Source: Rhodopirellula islandica (GTDB taxonomy: Bacteria > Planctomycetota > Planctomycetia > Pirellulales > Pirellulaceae). From it: a DNA stretch of 64,000 nucleotides. The position numbers and the translations under genes are program-made. Positions 2,119-16,786 of this stretch are shown piece after piece. The notes beneath the pieces are model-generated. The model did not search any database. It was not told where the DNA came from and saw only the letters and a program-made list of their open reading frames with translations. Each line of letters begins with the position of its first letter. Positions within the stretch are counted from its first letter, which is position 1. The stretch spans positions 186,001-250,000 of the forward strand of contig NZ_LECT01000054.1 in assembly GCF_001027925.1 (NCBI RefSeq), written 5' to 3'.

Positions 2119-4065
2119 ATGCCTTCCTCTGTCCTTCCCGTTTCAGTTCGTTTTGTGTTGGCGATCGCCTTGACGGGTGCCTCGGTTTGCCTGAGCGCAG
2201 CAGGTGTCGTCGCGAATGAAGCCGCCCAGTGGTTGCAGTTGATTGATCAATCCAAGTCGGGTTTGGACGCGGGGAAGTTGCCGTCCGTGGAAGCCACGGA
2301 AGCCGATGTGGTGGAGTCGATGCAGGCCGCCGGTGCATTTTTCCAGCGAGTGACGGATCAGGCCAATCACGAGGCCTGGATGCGTTTCCTCGATTTCGAA
2401 CCGCTGAGATCCGCGATTGAAAACAACGAATCGATCGCGAAACGAGGCAACGCCGCCACTGAACTGTCCCAACGTTTGAGCGGCCCCGAAGAAGGGCTGG
2501 AACTTTCGCGTCTGGTCGCATTGCGATCTTCACTGGATCGATACCTCGCCGCGCTTCGTTATGGTGATCCCGAACGTGGCCTCGCGCTCTCCGAACGACA
2601 GCTCGAAACACTCGCCAAGCTTTTGGCCGCTGATGAAGAAGCCGGTTCAACGCCTCGTTCACTGACGGACCTTTCGGGCGAAGAAGTTGCCCAAATCGAA
2701 TCGATCATCGAGTCGCTGGCATCAGCCAATCAAGCCGACGAATTGGTTTCCCGAATCACAGGTCGCTACTCGTCGCCCAACCTGCGTGCCTATGTCGACG
2801 GTGGCGTGATCAGCGACGCGATCACCCGTCCGGTCAACAATCCCGAACGAGTCAACGATTGCTTGCTCGGCACCCGCATCATCGGCGACGCCCGAGTTGT
2901 CGGAAACGTCACCGGTTCGTTGCTGCCATCCGAAGGCAATGTCCGCTTGTTGGTTCGTCTCGACGGTCAATTTTCGACATCGACGAAAGGCTACAACGGC
3001 CCTGTGACACTCCGGTCGTCAGGCTTTGGTCAGGTCTACGCGGCTCGGCAATTGATCATCACGGAAAAACGAATTTTCGCAGGTGAACCAATCGCAACGG
3101 CCAGCCTTTCGACGCAGATCAACCAAATCAATCACCCGCTCAAGCTGGTCCGCAAAATTGCGTCCAAGAAAGCGGCTGAGATGAAACCGCAAGCCGAAGC
3201 GATCTCTCGCCGAAAACTGCAAGACCGAGTGCTGGAAGGTTTTCGCCTGCAAACCGACGAAGCGTCGACTCGCACGTTCCCCGACCTCGACGCGAAGATG
3301 AGCCCTTGGCTGCGTCGTCTGGATTTGCCTTCGCCTGTTCGCACGATTGGATCCACCACGGATTCCGTGCACGTTCGAGCGACCATGCGGCGACCGTATG
3401 GATTGTCGGCACCCAGCGAAGGCCCCTCGTTGTCGACGGTCCGAACCGCGGCCTCATCGGGAACTTACCCGGGTGGCTACAGTGCCGCGATTCAGGTTCA
3501 CGAGAGCATCCTCAACAACACGGTGATGAAGTTGCTGGCCGGAGAAACCTTCACACCTGAAAAACTGCGTGACCTCACCAGTTCGTTTGGGATCCCATCG
3601 GACAAGAGCGACACCCCTGACGAAGCCTCAGCCGCTGAGGGAGAGCAACCCGAAAGCTTTGAAGTCGACTTCTCCGGTTTCCGTCCGGTCTATTTCGAAG
3701 CTCGCGATCAAACGCTTCGCATCGGCTTGCGAGGCGACCGCTTCGCCCAAGGGGACCGAGAACTGGATCGTCGCTTGGAAGTCTCCGCCGTCTACCATCC
3801 CGCGATCACGGAAGACGGCCGGATGATGTTGATTCGCGACGAAGAGATTGATCTGAAGTTTCCGGGGGGCCGTCGTTTGACGCTGTCACAGACGGCCATC
3901 AAAGCGAACATCGAAGAAGGCTTTGACAAACTTTTCCCGATGACGCTGCTGCATCGCGAATGGAAGCTTCCCTCGACGCTGAAGCTTCCCACGCTCGCAG
4001 GACGCTCGGCGAGAGTCATTGGCATTGATGCTCGCGACGGTTGGCTCACGATCGTCGTCCGCTAA
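2119..4065 (+). CDS. secreted hypothetical protein, 648 aa
   Basis: The frame opens further upstream, but the ATG at 2119 is followed by a good Sec signal (MPSSVLPVSVRFVLAIALTG... ending near AAGVVANEA). The mature part begins with a helical, Glu/Ala-rich region (about residues 35-240). A beta-rich middle follows (GDARVVGNVTGSLLP, VRLLVRLDGQFSTSTKGYNGPVTL), then a region with basic helices, a disordered acidic stretch near residues 500-520, and a C-terminal beta domain ending in WLTIVVR. I recognise no catalytic motif or named domain. It is probably periplasmic or cell-surface and taxonomically restricted. Codon use looks like that of its neighbours. Confidence 0.8.
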   Translation: MPSSVLPVSVRFVLAIALTGASVCLSAAGVVANEAAQWLQLIDQSKSGLDAGKLPSVEATEADVVESMQAAGAFFQRVTDQANHEAWMRFLDFEPLRSAIENNESIAKRGNAATELSQRLSGPEEGLELSRLVALRSSLDRYLAALRYGDPERGLALSERQLETLAKLLAADEEAGSTPRSLTDLSGEEVAQIESIIESLASANQADELVSRITGRYSSPNLRAYVDGGVISDAITRPVNNPERVNDCLLGTRIIGDARVVGNVTGSLLPSEGNVRLLVRLDGQFSTSTKGYNGPVTLRSSGFGQVYAARQLIITEKRIFAGEPIATASLSTQINQINHPLKLVRKIASKKAAEMKPQAEAISRRKLQDRVLEGFRLQTDEASTRTFPDLDAKMSPWLRRLDLPSPVRTIGSTTDSVHVRATMRRPYGLSAPSEGPSLSTVRTAASSGTYPGGYSAAIQVHESILNNTVMKLLAGETFTPEKLRDLTSSFGIPSDKSDTPDEASAAEGEQPESFEVDFSGFRPVYFEARDQTLRIGLRGDRFAQGDRELDRRLEVSAVYHPAITEDGRMMLIRDEEIDLKFPGGRRLTLSQTAIKANIEEGFDKLFPMTLLHREWKLPSTLKLPTLAGRSARVIGIDARDGWLTIVVR

Positions 4066-6967: not shown

Positions 6968-7051
6968 ACCGGGCGGCTTGCGCCGCTCCGCTAGAAAGAC
7001 TTTGCCGACGGCTGGGCTGGCTTTGTTAGCGGCAGGGCGCGAGCCCTCCGG
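6968..7051. repeat. family A palindromic repeat, copy A2
   Basis: Arms ACCGGGCGGCTTGCGCC (6968-6984) and GGCGCGAGCCCTCCGG (7036-7051), with the inner CTCCGCTA and TTAGCGG pair conserved. The rest of the gene-free stretch 6680-7428 shows only the copA fragment and unremarkable sequence; no gene is supported there. Confidence 0.75.
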
Positions 7052-8370: not shown

Positions 8371-8418
8371 CCCAGTCCTCTTTGTCCTGTGGCATCGGCT
8401 CGAAAGTTGGAGCGTGGC

Positions 8419-8489
8419 ACCGGGCGGCTTGCGCCACTCCGCTAACAAAGTTCACCGCTGTTTTAGCGGAAGGGCGCGAGCCCTCCGGT
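8419..8489. repeat. family A palindromic repeat, copy A3 (71 bp, most complete)
   Basis: Arms ACCGGGCGGCTTGCGCC (8419-8435) and GGCGCGAGCCCTCCGGT (8473-8489), with inner complementary CCGCTAA and TTAGCGG. The whole unit folds into one imperfect hairpin. Confidence 0.8.
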
Positions 8490-8552
8490 CCCTCACGCAA
8501 TCACCCAACCAACCGCTCGACTCGCGGCACGATTCTGCAACCACTGGCAAAC

Positions 8553-8683
8553 CCTAAGCAGGTACGCAGGTGTCATCGGGTATGTGAGCCGTTGGCGTTA
8601 GCCACGGTTTTCACGCGCAACCGGGGCTAACGCCCAAACGGCTCACATGGTTGTGCCCGATCATTCCAGCCGACCTGCTTAGG
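8553..8683. repeat. family B long palindrome, copy B1 (131 bp, full length)
   Basis: Perfect 11-bp terminal inverted repeats CCTAAGCAGGT (8553-8563) and ACCTGCTTAGG (8673-8683) enclose perfect inner arms ATGTGAGCCGTT (8582-8593)/AACGGCTCACAT (8637-8648) and GGCGTTAGCC (8594-8603)/GGCTAACGCC (8625-8634). It has no coding capacity. Partial or diverged copies occur at 25564-25636 and 52751-52882, which makes it a dispersed, MITE-like element. Confidence 0.85.
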
Positions 8684-9008
8684 GGCGTCCCTCGCTCACG
8701 CGTCGGGTTGTGATTGGTAGTCTTGGCCGACTCAGACGGGCAAGGGTGCCCATCCTACGGGTACAAACGCGTTTCGGCCTGGAGTCAACGATGCGACCAC
8801 GCGGACGCCCGAATTAACTGAAGCGGTGAAACTTAATGTTGCCCAATCAGCCAATTCGCTGTCCGACACCTTTCTTCTTCCGTTGCAAACTACCTTGCCA
8901 CTGGCGACCACAGTGCTGCCTTTTTGTTCTAACGCATTTTCAAGAAAAGATCGTCCAAGCCACTTGTGTGATATTAAACTCTGAGTTAAACATAGGGCAG
9001 GACACAGA

Positions 9009-9260
9009 AATTCTCCAGCAGGCCTCGCGATTACTTTTCGCTCGGCCTTCCTTCGCCGGGCTTGCTCTGCGGGGGCTACTTCGGTGTGGCGTTGCCATGC
9101 TGCCTATTGGCCCGTCATATCTGGGACGACCTCCCTCTGATGTGACGTGTCACCGTGATGCGACTGATGTCATTGACTTCAAGTCGTCGGATGATTCCTG
9201 AGGTTTGGAACCCGGTACGTTACCGGCGGAAGGACCTCACATTCCTCCACACGGAGAATT
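9009..9260 (+). ncRNA. candidate retron msr-msd RNA
   Basis: Upstream of the retron genes, AATTCTCC at 9009-9016 (a1) is perfectly complementary to GGAGAATT at 9253-9260 (a2). Immediately after a1 comes AGC (9017-9019), the context expected for the branching guanosine (G9018). A stem-loop follows with AGGCC (9020-9024) paired to GGCCT (9044-9048) and GCGA (9027-9030) paired to TCGC (9038-9041), and a 7-base loop TTACTTT, like msr hairpins. Near the 3' end TGAGGT/ACCTCA (9199-9204/9234-9239) encloses the perfect hairpin CCGGTA/TACCGG (9212-9217/9221-9226), a candidate msd stem. The order a1-AGC-msr-msd-a2 matches known retrons. The middle (9054-9190) was not folded reliably, and the msr/msd boundary is unknown. 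In the remaining gene-free DNA, 8690-9008, nothing is recognised. Confidence 0.65.
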
Positions 9261-9263
9261 GTT

Positions 9264-9500
9264 ATGAGCGGTAAACGCCGTGAAGTTGTGTCCTGCAGGG
9301 AACGAAAGTTGAGTGCGATTGTCAGTTTCTGGCACTCGCTCCCCGACCCGAGTGAACTGGCAGGAATGAGTGGGAGGTCGCTTGCGGACCTTCGTCGTGA
9401 AGCGTTGGCTTGTTTGAAACGTTCGCCTCCGGACCTCAACGGTGCGCAGGCAGCCACCTTCCAAGCGATCCACGACATGCGAAACGATGAGCAAAGTTAG
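9264..9500 (+). CDS. small protein of the retron operon, 78 aa, unknown function
   Basis: ATG at 9264 is preceded by GGAG at 9253-9256, seven bases away, a good ribosome binding site that lies inside the candidate a2 repeat. The product (MSGKRREVVSCRERKLSAIV...) is basic at the N-terminus and has a helix-prone centre (GRSLADLRREALACLKR) and a polar end. No signal peptide, membrane span or known motif is visible. It precedes the XRE regulator by 27 bp in the same direction, so it is probably co-transcribed with the reverse transcriptase. It could be an accessory or effector protein, or simply a leader ORF whose translation is tied to folding of the RNA. Confidence 0.65.
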   Translation: MSGKRREVVSCRERKLSAIVSFWHSLPDPSELAGMSGRSLADLRREALACLKRSPPDLNGAQAATFQAIHDMRNDEQS

Positions 9501-9527
9501 CGACCTCCCAAAATCATTAGAGAACCA

Positions 9528-9809
9528 ATGCGACGATTAGGAAAAACAGCCCGGAAAGTTCGATCCAAACTTGGGCTTTCGCAAGCCAAGATGGCGAAAG
9601 AGCTAGGTATTTCGATCGTTCAGCTCAGCAAGATTGAGAACGATCATGCGATGCCTTCACCAAATTTGATCGAGAAGTACCGCGAAGTTGCGAACGTCGA
9701 TTTGTACGTGATGGATTGGTGCGAGGATCCCGACATGACGACGTTGCCAATAGCGGTTCGTGAAGCAGCAGCAGAATTGCGGAACGCTTGGTCCCAGGAA
9801 TTTGATTGA
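9528..9809 (+). CDS. XRE-family helix-turn-helix protein of the retron operon
   Basis: 93 residues. Residues 5-60 form a Cro/C1-type helix-turn-helix: ARKVRSKLGLSQAKMAKEL, then SIVQLSKIENDHAMPSP, then a helix through YREVANVDLYVMD. The last 30 residues (AVREAAAELRNAWSQEFD) are helical and acidic. It would bind DNA, perhaps as operon repressor, or act as the retron's accessory protein; retrons whose partner gene is a small HTH protein form a described class (type VI in the Mestre et al. scheme, recalled from memory). The start codon ATG has only a weak AGAG upstream. The stop TGA at 9807-9809 lies 11 bp before the preferred ATG of the reverse transcriptase and overlaps its alternative TTG start (9806). 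Confidence 0.85.
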   Translation: MRRLGKTARKVRSKLGLSQAKMAKELGISIVQLSKIENDHAMPSPNLIEKYREVANVDLYVMDWCEDPDMTTLPIAVREAAAELRNAWSQEFD

Positions 9810-9820
9810 GCTCGATCGGC

Positions 9821-10837
9821 ATGGACGCGAAATTGTTCAGCTTGCACCGTCCCCGGCAGGTCGCAGATCGTCTTGGCCTTGACGAGTCATGGTTGCTTCG
9901 TCTCTCGGAGGAACTCCGCACCGCTGAAGGACGGTCAAACTACATTCGCGAGTTTACGCTTTTTGACCCCCGGCCCGGAAAGAAACCAAGAGACATCATC
10001 TCGGTTCGCGGCGATCTTCGATTGGCTCAGCGACGTCTTCATCAACGACTCCTGTCGCATTCCATTGAGCCGACCCCCTATAGTCACGGTGGCGTTCGTG
10101 GCCGAAGCATTAAGACGAATGCCGGGCAGCATGCACGCAACCGCTTTGTTTACCTGACAGATATCGCAAATTTCTATCCATCTATTCACAGCAGTCGCAT
10201 CAACGACTTTTTCAAGTCGAATGGGTGCCTTCCTGCAGTCGCTCGATTGCTGACCAGCCTCACGACTCTCGACTACCACCTGGCACTGGGGCTTATTACC
10301 AGTCCGATTTTAGCGGAAGCCATCATCCAGCCAGTCGATCGACGAATCGCGGTCGCCTGCGATCGACAGGGGCTCGTCTATAGCCGGTACGTTGACGATA
10401 TCTGTATATCGTCCAAGCACAGCCTGCACGGATCGGGAATTGACGCAACAGTTAGAACGATCCTTCGCCAATCAGGATTCAAGGTTCGAGTGTCAAAGGA
10501 TCGCTTCATCCGTGTCGATGAGGGTTGTGCGGTTACGGGAGTTCGTATCCATCGTGGACGACTTTCGGTGACACCAAGTTACATCGGTGAGTTGGAGACG
10601 GATCTCAGCAGCGCGCTATCCTTCGCTCGCGGCGGTCATCACACCGGACTCTTCTTCACAAAAGAGCAACTCTGGGGCCGCGTTCAATTCGTCCGGTGGA
10701 TCAATCCCGGCCGCGCGAAACCACTGATTCGATTGTTCCGCCAAATCCCCTGGCGACGCTACCGTGTGGCGGCAAGCCAGAGCGGATTGATCGCTGCAAA
10801 GGCCTTTTTTGCTGAACGAAAAAGCTACGTCCTTTGA
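9821..10837 (+). CDS. retron-type reverse transcriptase
   Basis: 338 residues from ATG 9821; an alternative TTG at 9806 overlaps the previous stop. It should copy part of the upstream structured RNA into msDNA joined to the branching G. Seen in order: GRSIKTNAGQH (residues 94-104) with the retron-specific NAxxH; YLTDIANFYPSI (111-122) carrying the first catalytic Asp (114); GLITSPILAEAI (157-168), a variant of the usual QGxxTSP motif without the Gln; SRYVDDICIS (188-197) with the catalytic YVDD; and CAVTG (236-240) containing the VTG motif that marks retron enzymes against group II intron enzymes. There are no maturase or endonuclease domains, as expected. It has a typical retron length. A defence role against phage is likely by family, not shown here. 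Confidence 0.92.
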   Translation: MDAKLFSLHRPRQVADRLGLDESWLLRLSEELRTAEGRSNYIREFTLFDPRPGKKPRDIISVRGDLRLAQRRLHQRLLSHSIEPTPYSHGGVRGRSIKTNAGQHARNRFVYLTDIANFYPSIHSSRINDFFKSNGCLPAVARLLTSLTTLDYHLALGLITSPILAEAIIQPVDRRIAVACDRQGLVYSRYVDDICISSKHSLHGSGIDATVRTILRQSGFKVRVSKDRFIRVDEGCAVTGVRIHRGRLSVTPSYIGELETDLSSALSFARGGHHTGLFFTKEQLWGRVQFVRWINPGRAKPLIRLFRQIPWRRYRVAASQSGLIAAKAFFAERKSYVL

Positions 10838-10895
10838 AACTGATTGAAGTGTTCGATTTTTCCCACAGTGCTGCCCCAAAAAACTAAACACCCAA

Positions 10896-12896
10896 ATGAT
10901 TGCTCGCTCAATACTCTGCCTGGCCGTACTGGTCATTGCTTCGCCGGTCTTTGCGAAACCGCAAGAGTCCCAAACGTTCAAGGGGAATTCAGGGGCTTTC
11001 TCAACGCCAGGCGAAGCCCTTGACCGTGTCCAGGGGGATCATTCGGACGAGATACCGATCGTGGTCGCACAAGGCGAGATGGACAAATTGATCGACTGCA
11101 AGGGCGGTGGTGCATGTCCAATTTCGGCTGCGTTGATCGCTTCGCAGGGAGTGCGGGTGATGGCGGGGTTACCAGTTGATTCGCAGCCGCACCGGACTGC
11201 GCTTCGCGTGTTTCAAGACAAACCGGAGTTGCTGCTGGGGCGGATCAGCAACGATCGTATGGTGATCTTGTTAGCTTATCTATGTGAAGATCTGGACGAG
11301 ACGCCAGTCGTGATCTCGACAGTTTCCGCGCCGAACAGTCCTCATGCGGCGCTGGGGCCGAAATGGTCCGAAACCGATGGACCAGACCTTACGACATCGC
11401 CTGGGGAGTTGAAAATTCTCGCTTACACAGTGACGACGGCCGACGGCACGGTTCGTGGGCGTCACTTTGTTCTGCTAAAGACGTACGAGGGCGGGCGGCT
11501 GAACTTCATTGACCCCGGCAAACCGCTGAAGAAACGAATGTTCGATTTGGAATATCGCGGTGTGCCGTCGGCTACCAAGCGTCAATTGTTCTTTCAAGTT
11601 CCTAACGGTTTGGACAAGTCGAGCCAGACCTACGAGCTGAACACGATCTTTTCGATTCGGTTGCTGGTCAACGATCCGAACGCTACGTCAGACAGCGAAT
11701 CAAGGGTCGAAACGATGAAGATAAACATCGACAACCTCGCCGAACGTTTGCGGGCGAGCGACGAGTTGACGTCGCCGATTGCGTGGCGGCGCGAAGGCGC
11801 GGTGTTCGGGTTGCCCGGCGTTGATCTGCCGGCCAGTGTCGATGGTGGAGGATACTCGGTCGCTGAATCACTCGAATTGTTCCGGCACGCGGGACGCATC
11901 AATTTGAATCTTCGTGATGTGGTGGGTGGAGCCCATGGTCGACCGCTGGCACAAGCCTCCACGCAGATCGCAGGCGAGGTGCTGAACAAGCTGGTCACCG
12001 GCGAGGCTTACGTTGCTGTCTCGATTACCGAACCGTTGGCTGGGTCGAACCCAAAGGAGATGCAGAGCAAGGCAGTTCGTTACGAAGGCGGTTTTAAACT
12101 CACCGGACGCAAATTATGGAATGCTCGCTTGCGACAGGCGACTCACATCGTGCTCTACACGCAGGCGGCCAATGGAAAGGAAGGTGAATTTTCGGCATTC
12201 CTGATCCCGATAGATCATCCCGGACTAAAAATTGTCGACCGATACGCACATGGACTGACCGGAAATTCATTCGGCGGTCTCGAATTCGACGACATGTTCG
12301 TCAGCCAAGACCATCTGATCGGAAAAGACGGCGAGGGCTGGAAAATCTTCACCAGACACTTTCAGTACTGGCGATTGATGCAGGCCGCTGCGGCGATCGG
12401 GTGTGGCGAAGCAGCGCTCGACCAATTGGCTGATCGACTGAAAACACGTAATGCGTTTGGCGGTCCGATCGGCCGATTCAGTCACCTGCAACAACCGCTC
12501 GGCGAATACACCACCAAATTGCGAATGGCGTTGGCATTGGCACGAGAAGCAGCGAAGTTGCTTGATGACGGCAACTACAAGGCGGCTACCTCATTGATCG
12601 ACGGCTTGAAAGCCGAGGGCGTTGAGATCGCATTGTCGGCTTGCGACACCGCCATGCGTGCTCATGGTGCGATGGGTTACAGCCGAGACGTTGACCTTGG
12701 TGACCGGGTTCGCGATCTGATGGGATTGCGAATTGCCGATGGGACGACCGATGTGATGCGAATGTCAGTCGTCAAGAATGTCTACGGTTCAGAGCTTTGG
12801 ATCATGGCGGTCTACGGTATGCCCAGGAACGAGGAAACCGAAACTGAAATCGAAGCAGGGGCTCCTGTCACCTCTGAGGTCAGCAATGATGAGTAA
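10896..12896 (+). CDS. fusion: secreted papain/C39-like domain + acyl-CoA dehydrogenase
   Basis: A single uninterrupted 666-codon frame. Residues 1-20 are a Sec signal (MIARSILCLAVLVIASPVFA). Residues about 50-260 contain Cys74 in GGACPISAA, His190 in GRHFVLLKTYEGG and Asp206 in NFIDPG, the Cys...His...Asp order of papain-like/C39-like folds. Residues 274-666 form an acyl-CoA dehydrogenase of normal length: VAVSITEPLAGSNP, FKLTGRKLWN, FGGPIGRFSHLQ, HGAMGYSRD and IADGTTDVMR. The last motif has Asp where classical enzymes have the catalytic Glu, as in the ACAD10/11 type. An internal ATG at 11715 (residue 274) has CAAGGG 8-13 bases upstream, so the dehydrogenase might also be made separately without a signal peptide. 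The gene begins 58 bp after the reverse transcriptase. Exporting a FAD enzyme through Sec would be unusual. Confidence 0.8.
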   Translation: MIARSILCLAVLVIASPVFAKPQESQTFKGNSGAFSTPGEALDRVQGDHSDEIPIVVAQGEMDKLIDCKGGGACPISAALIASQGVRVMAGLPVDSQPHRTALRVFQDKPELLLGRISNDRMVILLAYLCEDLDETPVVISTVSAPNSPHAALGPKWSETDGPDLTTSPGELKILAYTVTTADGTVRGRHFVLLKTYEGGRLNFIDPGKPLKKRMFDLEYRGVPSATKRQLFFQVPNGLDKSSQTYELNTIFSIRLLVNDPNATSDSESRVETMKINIDNLAERLRASDELTSPIAWRREGAVFGLPGVDLPASVDGGGYSVAESLELFRHAGRINLNLRDVVGGAHGRPLAQASTQIAGEVLNKLVTGEAYVAVSITEPLAGSNPKEMQSKAVRYEGGFKLTGRKLWNARLRQATHIVLYTQAANGKEGEFSAFLIPIDHPGLKIVDRYAHGLTGNSFGGLEFDDMFVSQDHLIGKDGEGWKIFTRHFQYWRLMQAAAAIGCGEAALDQLADRLKTRNAFGGPIGRFSHLQQPLGEYTTKLRMALALAREAAKLLDDGNYKAATSLIDGLKAEGVEIALSACDTAMRAHGAMGYSRDVDLGDRVRDLMGLRIADGTTDVMRMSVVKNVYGSELWIMAVYGMPRNEETETEIEAGAPVTSEVSNDE

Positions 12897-13965: not shown

Positions 13966-15006
13966 TTACTCGCGGGTGAAACGCAGCAGGTCGTAGGACT
14001 GGGCGGTTTTTCGCTCGGTCATTTCGAGCGGCCACCAGTCGTATTCGAGGTAGCGATCGGTTTGCTTGGTGATGACGTAGGCTTCTCCGCCCGACCGCAG
14101 TTTCTTTGCGGCGGTGACCATGAAATGCTCGGCGATTCGGAAGTCGCCGTAGTAGGGCGGGTTGAGCAACGCGATGTCGCAAGCTGGCACGTCCGGCAGC
14201 ATTCCATTGTGGTTGACGATCGCGGTGAGGTTGGTGAGTTGGTTTTGAGCTGCCGCACGCTCGGTGCACTGGACGGCTCGCGAATTGCAATCGACGGCGT
14301 AAACGTGACCGGTTTGTGATCGCACGGCGGCTGCCATTGCGACGGCTCCGTTGCCGCATCCGAGTTCCAGCACGGTGGATCCTTCGGGGATCGGCGCGTG
14401 CCGGATCATTGCCGCGGCGGCTCGGTCGACCGACCGATGAGAGAACACCGATGGACGAGAATGCACGGTCAGGATGCGATCGTCGACTCGGTGAGTGAAT
14501 TCGGCGTCGAAGTTTTTCGGTTTGAATGTCTCGGATGATTTTCGCACGACGTAAACACGTCCGGTCGCGTGATCGTGGCATCGGACTTTGGGACCGAGAG
14601 CCTGCAACTGATTCAGCAGCCAGGTGTCTTTGGGAGCGTTGACCGCGGCGATCAGTTCACCACCGAGGGTCAGCCTTTGCCAGGATTGATGAATGAGGTT
14701 GCGATTCATCTCCGCTTCGCCGGTTTTCAAGACCGGCAACAAAGCGAGATCCCACGAGGTGTCAGGAAGATCGGGTTGGCAGATCACATGAACGTCTGCC
14801 GACGTCACCTCGCGAGCCTGTTCGGCGCGGTGCAAATCCACGAACCAGCTCGTGACTTTCGAGCTTGGAAAGGCGGCAATCAGTGCATCGGCCGATTGCC
14901 CTCGTCCCGGTGACATCACGATCGCGGAGGCGAGCGATGGGTGGGGGAAAGAAGCCAAGTGATCGATCAGCAATTGTTCCGACGGAAGCGGAGGCAGGTC
15001 ACTCAC
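13966..15006 (-). CDS. class I SAM-dependent methyltransferase, RsmC/MTS-like
   Basis: About 346 residues. The N-terminal half (1-165) is a degenerate Rossmann-like domain, as in RsmC/RlmG duplicated methyltransferases. The C-terminal half carries SAM motif I VLELGCGNGAVAMAAA (about 215-230) and the base-flipping catalytic motif LLNPPYYGDF (about 275-285). NPPY points to N-methylation of a base, most likely guanosine in rRNA; the exact target is inferred only. I chose GTG at 15006 because GGAG lies six bases upstream; a TTG at 15018 is possible. The start overlaps the xylanase stop (14999-15001), so translation is probably coupled. Confidence 0.8.
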   Translation of the reverse strand: MSDLPPLPSEQLLIDHLASFPHPSLASAIVMSPGRGQSADALIAAFPSSKVTSWFVDLHRAEQAREVTSADVHVICQPDLPDTSWDLALLPVLKTGEAEMNRNLIHQSWQRLTLGGELIAAVNAPKDTWLLNQLQALGPKVRCHDHATGRVYVVRKSSETFKPKNFDAEFTHRVDDRILTVHSRPSVFSHRSVDRAAAAMIRHAPIPEGSTVLELGCGNGAVAMAAAVRSQTGHVYAVDCNSRAVQCTERAAAQNQLTNLTAIVNHNGMLPDVPACDIALLNPPYYGDFRIAEHFMVTAAKKLRSGGEAYVITKQTDRYLEYDWWPLEMTERKTAQSYDLLRFTRE

Positions 15007-16786
15007 CGCCAACTCCAATTTGTAGGGTGACGGTTTCGTCTTCGAGTAGATTCACGGTCTGAATCCTTGCCCAGTCTTGGGCTTCGGCTTGGACGCGATG
15101 TGTGCCACGAAAGGCTCGGACGGTGGCGATGCCTTCAGCGTTGGTTTGAACGGTTTGGTTGGTCCACCAGGCTTGAAAGATCAGCTCTTCCCAGACTTGG
15201 CCGTTGGGTTTGATTGTCCAGTCCTCTCGGATCATGGCGCCGTGGGGACGCCACATGTCGCCTTCCCAGAAGCCCCAGGTTGTGAACCCGGTGGTCGCAG
15301 GATGGGCAAACACCAGCGTGAGAAAATCGCGAGTGAACTGGGCTTGGGTGGCTTCGTCACGGGAGTCGATGTCGAACTCGGTGATCTCGATTGGCAACTG
15401 GAATCGTGACAGTTCGTTGAGCACTTTCCAGGCTTCGGGCATGGTGATCAGGTCGGCTTGAAAGTGCCCTTGGACACCGATGCCTTCGACGGTTCCTCCG
15501 CTATCCAAGATTTGTTCGATCTGCTGGATGTAAGTTGTGAGATGCTTGGACCGTTCGCTGCCACCGGTCATCAATCCGTATTCGTTGATGAACCAGAGGG
15601 CCTCGGGTTGCGATCGCTGGCCTCGATTGAAGACGTCGGCGTAGTAGTCGTTTCCTAAGACATCGCCGACCAGCGACACATCGCGAAGTTCATTGATCGC
15701 ATCCCAGACCGCGATTGGCATATCGCGTGTTCGCTCCAGAGCGGCGTCCATCGCGGTTTCGATTTCGGCCTGGAATCGCGAGGGTTGATCGGCCAGTTGT
15801 TGGACGCGATCGGGAATGAAATGCGGGTACAGCAGCAGGTGGTTTTTGATTTCAAAGCCCGCGTCGATGGCCCACTCGGCGGTCGCGTCGGCTTTCACAA
15901 CACCGGCGGGACGGTCCGTTCCCCAGTCCGCCCAATAGCGAGGCAGGGTGACACGGTTGAACCAATGCTTGGTTTGCTCGCGAAATTTGGCGGCGTCTTC
16001 GCCAGCATGGATGGGTGTGTTGCCCACGAACGTCCCGAAGGCGTAATCGTGCTCTTGCTGTTGGACGTGAACGGTTGCACCGGCCAGCGGTTCGCCGACC
16101 GCGTTGACGACACGGACCGTCAGGTCGCGTTTGCGATGACGTTCGATGCTGCGGAGAGCTTCGGCTCGCCAAGCATCGTCATCCGCACCCGGGTAGAACA
16201 ACCGCGTGAACGGAAGGCTTGCGTCGGGAACGTTTCCCAGCCCGATCAATTTCAGATCGCGAATTTCGAGTCGTTGCTTCTTCTCGGCGCACTGGATCGA
16301 GGCGTAGACACGATTGGCGTCGTAATCCTGCTTGGCACGAAAGCAGATTCGAAACGGATGCCACTGATTGGGAACGTCGAAGGAGCGAAACCCGTTGGGT
16401 TCTTCGATTGGTTCCCAGGGATCGTTGGTCGCCATCGAGACATGAATGCTTCCCAGTCCATCCGTGCTGGATGCGATGGCTCGTGCGTCGAAGGAGACGC
16501 AGAACACGTCGGACTCTTGCACGGGAATTGAGATCGGCTCGCACTGAACCTGTAACGCCCAGGCTTCTTCTTGCGGGGCAGGGCAGTTGACCGTGATCAG
16601 GTTGTTTTGCCGGTGGATCGAGCCGGTGCCAGGGCGGACGTCGAGTCGAAACTCGGCGGTGGGAACGAGTGTGATTCCCTCCGCCGAAGTTTGCGATTCT
16701 TGTGCGAACGCATGGATGAGCTTGGCCGGTGTCCCGAGAGAACTCAGGAGCAAAGCGATTGCCAAAGAGGCCTGCCACCATCGCAT
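14999..16786 (-). CDS. GH10 endo-beta-xylanase-like glycoside hydrolase
   Basis: Starts at ATG 16786 with a signal peptide (MRWWQASLAIALLLSSLG...AFAQ); a TTG at 16798 would overlap the end of tyrS. Residues about 30-190 form a beta-sandwich region with carbohydrate-binding character. After it come a short transthyretin-like strand segment (LTVRVVNAVGEPLAGATVHV) and the GH10 barrel (about 215-520). The acid/base Glu is in WDAINEL (about residue 360) and the nucleophile Glu in ITEFDID (about 468), both matching GH10. The C-terminal tail is a small beta domain. It would cut beta-1,4-xylan outside the cytoplasm. Its place between tyrS and a methyltransferase gene with almost no spacers is odd. 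Confidence 0.88.
   Translation of the reverse strand: MRWWQASLAIALLLSSLGTPAKLIHAFAQESQTSAEGITLVPTAEFRLDVRPGTGSIHRQNNLITVNCPAPQEEAWALQVQCEPISIPVQESDVFCVSFDARAIASSTDGLGSIHVSMATNDPWEPIEEPNGFRSFDVPNQWHPFRICFRAKQDYDANRVYASIQCAEKKQRLEIRDLKLIGLGNVPDASLPFTRLFYPGADDDAWRAEALRSIERHRKRDLTVRVVNAVGEPLAGATVHVQQQEHDYAFGTFVGNTPIHAGEDAAKFREQTKHWFNRVTLPRYWADWGTDRPAGVVKADATAEWAIDAGFEIKNHLLLYPHFIPDRVQQLADQPSRFQAEIETAMDAALERTRDMPIAVWDAINELRDVSLVGDVLGNDYYADVFNRGQRSQPEALWFINEYGLMTGGSERSKHLTTYIQQIEQILDSGGTVEGIGVQGHFQADLITMPEAWKVLNELSRFQLPIEITEFDIDSRDEATQAQFTRDFLTLVFAHPATTGFTTWGFWEGDMWRPHGAMIREDWTIKPNGQVWEELIFQAWWTNQTVQTNAEGIATVRAFRGTHRVQAEAQDWARIQTVNLLEDETVTLQIGVGGE

Follow-up and report, generated by a model that had tools for sequence, protein, structure and literature searches.

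Introduction

Type VI retrons combine a reverse transcriptase (RT) with a DNA-binding protein and a small auxiliary protein (PMC8541194), and retron RTs in general are defined by the NAxxH motif of region X and the VTG motif of region Y (PMC6868368). Here we analyse a stretch of 64,000 nucleotides from Rhodopirellula islandica (contig NZ_LECT01000054.1; "the window"), in which a block on the forward strand (8961-10837) carries, in this order, an RNA leader, an open reading frame (ORF) of 78 amino acids, a gene for an XRE-type helix-turn-helix (HTH) protein and an RT gene. The type VI class reportedly stems from the scheme of Mestre et al. 2020. An earlier reading of the bare letters, referred to here as the original prediction, had described the locus as a complete HTH-associated retron. 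Our analysis supports this assignment and adds that the 78-amino-acid ORF is no incidental neighbour of the retron: its translation start is built into the predicted retron RNA.

In the literature searched, which covered few subscription journals and hardly any preprints and in part offered only portions of the text, we found no description of a mechanism or effector for type VI retrons, nor of Shine-Dalgarno masking by a retron RNA; this is weak evidence of novelty. Recent preprint work may deal with hidden toxin ORFs in type VI-like retrons, which, if right, would lower the novelty of what follows.

Results

The arms of the retron RNA are the perfect 8-bp inverted repeats a1 (AATTCTCC, 9009-9016) and a2 (GGAGAATT, 9253-9260). 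The a2 arm doubles as the Shine-Dalgarno sequence of the small ORF (9264-9500), lying 3 bases upstream of its ATG, with a1 as the anti-Shine-Dalgarno. An additional perfect 10-bp repeat (GCAGGACACA, 8997-9006; TGTGTCCTGC, 9287-9296) has its second arm within the coding sequence; neither observation was part of the original prediction. In the minimum free energy (MFE) structure the outer helix joins 8997-9007 (GCAGGACACAG), close to where the RNA is inferred to begin, to 9286-9296 (TTGTGTCCTGC), which are codons 8-11 of the small ORF. Enclosed by the inner arms are the AGC that directly follows a1 (9017-9019), a first hairpin at 9021-9047 with the loop TTACTTT (9031-9037), which by retron anatomy is probably part of msr and of which the MFE structure forms the inner GCGA/TCGC stem only, and the remaining msr and msd (template) region at 9048-9252 with several MFE hairpins. 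Folding of the RNA from 8992 to 9308 yielded -132 kcal/mol compared to -109.2 kcal/mol for shuffled sequences (standard deviation (sd) 5.3; z -4.27; 0 of 100 shuffles as stable), and both the MFE and the centroid structure hold the a1/a2 stem, the outer stem and a hairpin at 9262-9283 that contains the AUG of the small ORF. The pairing probability of this AUG is 0.93 in the window and ranges from 0.02 to 1.00 in the other loci described below. A search of 8900-9400 against Rfam gave no match at E<=1.

Relatives were sought in three overlapping samples, with 241 genomes from the family, 392 from the phylum and 397 from the class, and in one scan of viral contigs; as the genome searches scored only some candidates per genome (5 for the RT, 13 for the small protein), copies may be missed. 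Sixteen further loci of the same clade were obtained (L005-L008, L019, L020, L034 and L050-L058). The clade is well separated in the class sample, where its RTs score at least 238 bits in 10 of the 397 genomes, the window's own included, and all others at most 168 bits. Within the genus, 3 of 13 genomes (G000, G155 and G161) have a clade RT and G158 carries a distant one. The contig of L034 ends upstream, leaving leader and small ORF outside its DNA, and this locus and L056 were left out of the RNA tests.

To compare pairing between diverged loci, we used a swap test on ungapped helices in 13 distinct loci, without the near copies L005 and L006, in which each arm at the translation start was scored against its own upstream stretch and against the stretches of the other loci. 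With unanchored positions, the Shine-Dalgarno arm preferred its own stretch (total of 271 compared to 219.0 when swapped, sd 10.4, p=0.00004; own stretch best in 6/13 loci), as did the arm in the early codons (277 compared to 245.4, sd 10.7, p=0.0038; best in 4/13); no such preference was seen for three control stretches (p=0.48, 0.18 and 0.72). Dropping L020, the window or L057 in turn left p at 0.00010-0.00012 for the Shine-Dalgarno arm and at 0.0005-0.017 for the codon arm. When the search was anchored at the inferred RNA 5' end, 0 of 100,000 permutations reached either total, and the own stretch was best in 8/13 and 7/13 loci; these anchors were fixed after the repeats had been seen, a choice of which the unanchored test is free. 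A comparison of duplex energies with those of shuffled leaders, allowing free interior loops and including L006 (14 loci), gave a combined p of 0.00026 for the Shine-Dalgarno; this test is noisy and the swap test on ungapped helices is better suited, and the two should be read together.

Folding of the individual leaders agreed with these results. In the MFE structures the first 50 nucleotides are the partner of the Shine-Dalgarno region in 10/13 loci and of the codons, by at least 9 pairs, in 11/13, while the pairing probability of the Shine-Dalgarno core is at least 0.71 in 13/13 loci and, for pairing with the 5' end, at least 0.58 in 11/13; the mean z of the folds across loci is -4.0. Together, the comparisons show that the predicted closing stem overlaps the translation start and that this overlap is kept across diverged loci, apart from the exceptions named in the Discussion. 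The individual features of the original prediction (an RT with NAGQH, YVDD and VTG, an XRE protein, the 78-amino-acid ORF, the 8-bp a1/a2 repeats, the AGC and the TTACTTT loop) could all be located, the leader folds better than chance would give (z -4.27), and a1/a2 pairing in homologous loci is supported by the preference of the Shine-Dalgarno arm for its own upstream stretch. The locus thus has the structured upstream RNA expected of a retron, with 8-bp and 10-bp repeats whose arms change together.

The RT (343 amino acids, 9806-10837, Pfam RVT_1) starts at a TTG that overlaps the stop of the XRE gene, with an alternative ATG at 9821. Its best PADLOC model is RT_VI (5.8e-48, 161.6 bits), ahead of RT_III-A (148.3 bits) by a modest margin, and RT_VI is also the best PADLOC match for L007, L008, L019 and L020. 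The protein features NAGQH, YVDD, VTG and GLITSP and thereby both of the motifs that define retron RTs, each of which drifts in some members of the clade. At E<=0.01 it matches 14 solved sequences, each bearing the label of a retron or of an RNA-directed DNA polymerase, with Ec86 at the top (1.1e-14); its matches to the NCBIfam retron models all fall below the cut-offs. For comparison we used eight proteobacterial loci (L024-L028 and L030-L032). The RT tree comprised 55 of 79 RTs, with 24 omitted (9 short, weak or near-identical and 15 thinned), and among its members few represent other retron types (two of type I and one of type III, typed by gene context). Sixteen rows of the clade, with the window and without L005, form a single group with support of 100/97; the grouping of the clade with the proteobacterial type VI RTs, five viral contigs and L003 is supported at 91/88 and is the weaker statement. 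The RT of L031 is placed with L003, L035 and L038, away from the other seven proteobacterial RTs. Scores against RT_VI lie at 161-212 bits in 5 clade RTs and at 259-346 bits in 7 proteobacterial RTs.

These data support the assignment of the locus to a distinct clade of type VI (HTH-associated) retrons. The original prediction of a complete retron of this type therefore stands on the best matches to RT_VI and HTH_VI, on the RT tree, in which the RT groups with those of type VI, and on the preference of the a1/a2 arms for their own partners. Its hint that loss of the motif-4 glutamine (GLITSP) betrays a divergent lineage held only in part. The lineage is divergent, and the missing glutamine had to be rejected as its mark, since this residue varies both inside and outside the clade: L052, L055 and L056 retain it within the clade, and the RTs of the proteobacterial type VI group have PTG in 7/8 cases and PQG in L031, PQG recurring in L035 and L038 and L003 having AQG.

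The same evidence bears on the suggestion that the upstream stem merely serves the operon as a translational attenuator of the common sort, or as a leader resembling a riboswitch, with the RT using another RNA or the locus being no working retron. Such a reading could draw on the leader's failure to match any Rfam family and on an msr core that, in the window's subclade, is unlike that of the other loci. We consider it highly improbable, because the RT possesses catalytic and retron motifs and groups with type VI RTs, and because the RNA has a retron-like layout of a1, AGC, hairpin and a2 with arms that change together.

All 15 clade loci whose upstream DNA is intact (the window, L005-L008, L019, L020, L050-L055, L057 and L058) have an ORF in the slot before the XRE gene, the position of the auxiliary gene of type VI retrons. 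Leave-one-out profile searches recovered 13 of 14 small proteins at E 1.2e-6 or better; that of L020 was not recovered by the profile of the others (E 0.43), and its assignment is by position alone. Compared to L006, a locus of the same genus, 6 of 7 nucleotide differences in the ORF fall on third codon positions. A profile of the 14 proteins matches 10/397 class genomes (E<=1e-4), coinciding with the clade RT in all ten genomes and in position. Nine of these genomes had contributed to the profile and the tenth holds the broken L056, so the telling part is the absence of orphan copies among the scored candidates; the family was met only beside the clade RT. L056 itself has open XRE and RT genes and a small ORF interrupted by a frame change, which may reflect an assembly error or a retron that has lost its small protein. 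Structure prediction for the window's protein returned three long helices and a short one, with a predicted local distance difference test score (pLDDT) of 79 and a predicted template modelling score (pTM) of 0.61.

A small ORF also lies upstream in each of the eight proteobacterial loci, though partly unannotated and picked by hand from the sequence. RT_VI is the best PADLOC match in the seven of these loci whose RTs were scanned (L024-L027 and L030-L032), each with an annotated regulator gene, and the regulator is HTH_VI in all six scanned (L025-L027 and L030-L032). Several of their small ORFs are, by eye, short, lysine-rich and hydrophobic, and the small protein of L031, the only type VI small protein from outside the clade that was compared, shows no similarity to the window's family; L003, L035 and L038 carry small ORFs of 78-83 amino acids. 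This suggests that the slot upstream of the HTH gene may hold exchangeable effectors. The masking of the translation start seems to take another form in the proteobacterial loci, where a local hairpin over the Shine-Dalgarno has weak support (p=0.012 for the eight loci, 0.040 without L028) and pairing with a far arm has none (p=0.13 and 0.12); in the window's clade the local hairpin is unsupported (p=0.65).

These observations also bear on a possible role of the small protein as a structural partner, present constitutively in the complex of RT and msDNA (multicopy single-stranded DNA), in which case the overlap of a2 with the Shine-Dalgarno would make translation and priming mutually exclusive and so set the ratio of the parts. 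The coincidence of RT and small-protein profiles in the same 10/397 genomes is what such a partner would produce, the helical model has no obvious catalytic or membrane part, and the role of effector is itself only inferred. A structural partner nevertheless appears unlikely, given that the slot holds differing small proteins in other type VI loci, that of L031 being dissimilar, and that several of these, short, lysine-rich and hydrophobic as they look, are more toxin-like.

The XRE protein (93 amino acids, 9528-9809, Pfam HTH_3) has HTH_VI as its best PADLOC match (3.5e-18) and is thus the partner expected for a type VI retron; the XRE proteins of L007 and L020 match HTH_VI as well. Upstream of the leader, 8961-8993 tentatively contains a promoter and operator, with a palindrome (TTAAACTCTGAGTTAAA, 8974-8990) and a -10-like sequence (TTAAACAT, 8986-8993). 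An element of similar form, TTAAACTC..GAG, GGG or TGG..TTAAA/TTTAA, is the top palindrome in L006, L008, L052 and L053, again just upstream of the leader, and is possibly an operator for the XRE protein. Its significance is p=0.047 in L052 and above 0.08 in the remaining loci that have it, and the best palindromes of L020 (p=0.007) and L057 (p=0.017) differ in sequence.

Since the family is usually accompanied by an XRE gene, which is also present in the clade loci read, the XRE protein might itself be the effector or the main sensor, regulating host genes or acting as a decoy for a phage repressor, with the small ORF as an accessory. We regard this as very unlikely. XRE proteins of such size are generally held to be autorepressors, the RNA pairing that is conserved involves the small ORF, and L028, whose RT groups with those of proteobacterial type VI, has a small ORF and no XRE ORF of at least 70 amino acids before its RT. 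On its predicted ORFs, L028 (small ORF and RT, followed by a further ORF at 2737-3723) is no full type VI locus.

In the comparison with L006, the alignable stretch (8962-10801) is 88.7% identical, and the flanks at 8900-8955 and 10838-10895 fall to 41% and 44% (gaps counted); because similarity is confined to this stretch and the flanks have diverged, we take the retron block to be one unit. Within it, 9081-9250 is 95% identical and the RT gene only 82%. The next gene downstream (10896-12896) encodes acyl-CoA dehydrogenase domains. In the sister genome G150 (L085, reverse strand, oriented 2-1369) the position directly before the same gene is taken not by a retron but by the last part of a gene for a type I restriction enzyme (PADLOC REase_I, 1.4e-16), and this single genome fits a putative site at which defence genes are exchanged. 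A defence island in the window was considered and is unsupported, with one of seven scanned neighbours (1816-25351) matching PADLOC (mad2) and the two flanking genes matching nothing; none of the scanned neighbours is a known retron effector. The mad2 match (13966-15018, 2.6e-18) is a methyltransferase with an MTS domain and probably an ordinary RsmC-like enzyme. Elsewhere, the intergenic sequence at 8418-8700 is repeat-like (8418-8496 and 7027-7051 match L083 4414-4488 reversed), a long inverted repeat can be made out at about 8580-8650, and 56403-56448 matches the Acido-Lenti-1 RNA (Rfam RF01687) above the gathering threshold.

Discussion

The explanation that we favour, with modest confidence, is repression at the level of translation: the retron RNA would keep a small effector, which is probably a toxin, from being made until infection upsets the complex of RNA, RT and msDNA. 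In retrons, synthesis of msDNA is primed at the base of the a1/a2 stem. A single transcript would hold the msr-msd RNA and the genes for the small protein, the XRE protein and the RT; the RNA would fold during its synthesis, recruit the RT and prime msDNA at the foot of the a1/a2 stem. As long as the stem stands, it would block ribosome loading and keep the small protein, the likely toxic effector, absent or at a low level, and the XRE protein would probably autoregulate the promoter. A phage product that cleaves, unwinds or modifies the RNA-msDNA-RT complex would then free the Shine-Dalgarno, so that the small protein is translated and the cell arrested. In effect, retron RNA and small protein would form a toxin-antitoxin pair with the RNA as antitoxin at the level of translation, and ribosome loading and msDNA priming would exclude each other.

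A more far-reaching version can be offered only tentatively. Here the a1/a2 stem would lock both the Shine-Dalgarno and the first codons of a new family of small toxins, a phage attacking any one of RNA, RT and msDNA would thereby switch on the toxin directly, and type VI retrons in general might be RNA-level toxin-antitoxin systems with exchangeable small toxins. If repression by the retron RNA is correct, the small ORF would be the effector and the RNA would hold its ribosome-binding site, providing a direct and testable answer to how type VI retrons work. It would also connect retrons with RNA-based toxin-antitoxin systems and account for a retron of this kind needing no large effector gene.

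Several observations weigh against repression by the retron RNA. The evidence consists of sequence comparison and predicted folding. For the small protein, searches of families, sequences and folds returned nothing significant, only single weak matches (best E values 0.024 in Pfam, 0.025 in PHROGs, 0.089 among Protein Data Bank (PDB) sequences and 3.9 among PDB folds), and for this reason the name toxin is one that we infer. In the duplex-energy test against shuffled leaders the codon (outer) arm reached p=0.38 over the 14 loci, and the window's own Shine-Dalgarno p=0.24. Among the individual loci, L057 is a plain exception and has no such pairing, the Shine-Dalgarno of L019 sits between the two helices, L051 is mixed in that its MFE structure leaves the Shine-Dalgarno pairing unused (probability 0.58), and the MFE structure of L055 lacks the outer helix, though the complementary repeat is present. 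Pair types near the core vary between loci, with up to five at one position (10/13 loci, without L019, L055 and L057), and the table behind this count was built from helices chosen for pairing and serves as an illustration, not as a test. The window's palindrome is not significant (p=0.113), no match to the sigma-70 consensus was found there, and the scanned neighbours are not clearly defence genes.

Among described systems, type VI retrons are the closest, sharing with the window the gene order of small ORF, HTH gene and RT gene, the best matches to RT_VI and HTH_VI and a neighbouring place in the tree. The window's clade differs from proteobacterial type VI in standing apart with lower RT_VI scores, in having a different small protein, and in placing its Shine-Dalgarno in a predicted long-range stem instead of a local hairpin. 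In Ec86 and in Ec83 (Retron-Septu), RT and msDNA restrain a protein effector (PMC12948488). The window is likewise tripartite, with RT, structured RNA and presumed effector; whereas Ec86 and Ec83 restrain the effector as a protein, the anatomy here points to restraint of its translation. Type I toxin-antitoxin systems, in which a small RNA represses a small toxin (PMC11264685), resemble the window in having an anti-Shine-Dalgarno RNA over a small ORF; in the window this RNA lies in cis upstream and has a retron layout, and toxicity of the small protein is presumed. In DRT2, reverse transcription makes a toxic gene (PMC12039810). Like DRT2, the window would tie the production of a toxic protein to an RT of antiviral type and to a structured RNA, but where DRT2 builds a new gene by reverse transcription, the ORF described here would be an ordinary gene with a masked start.

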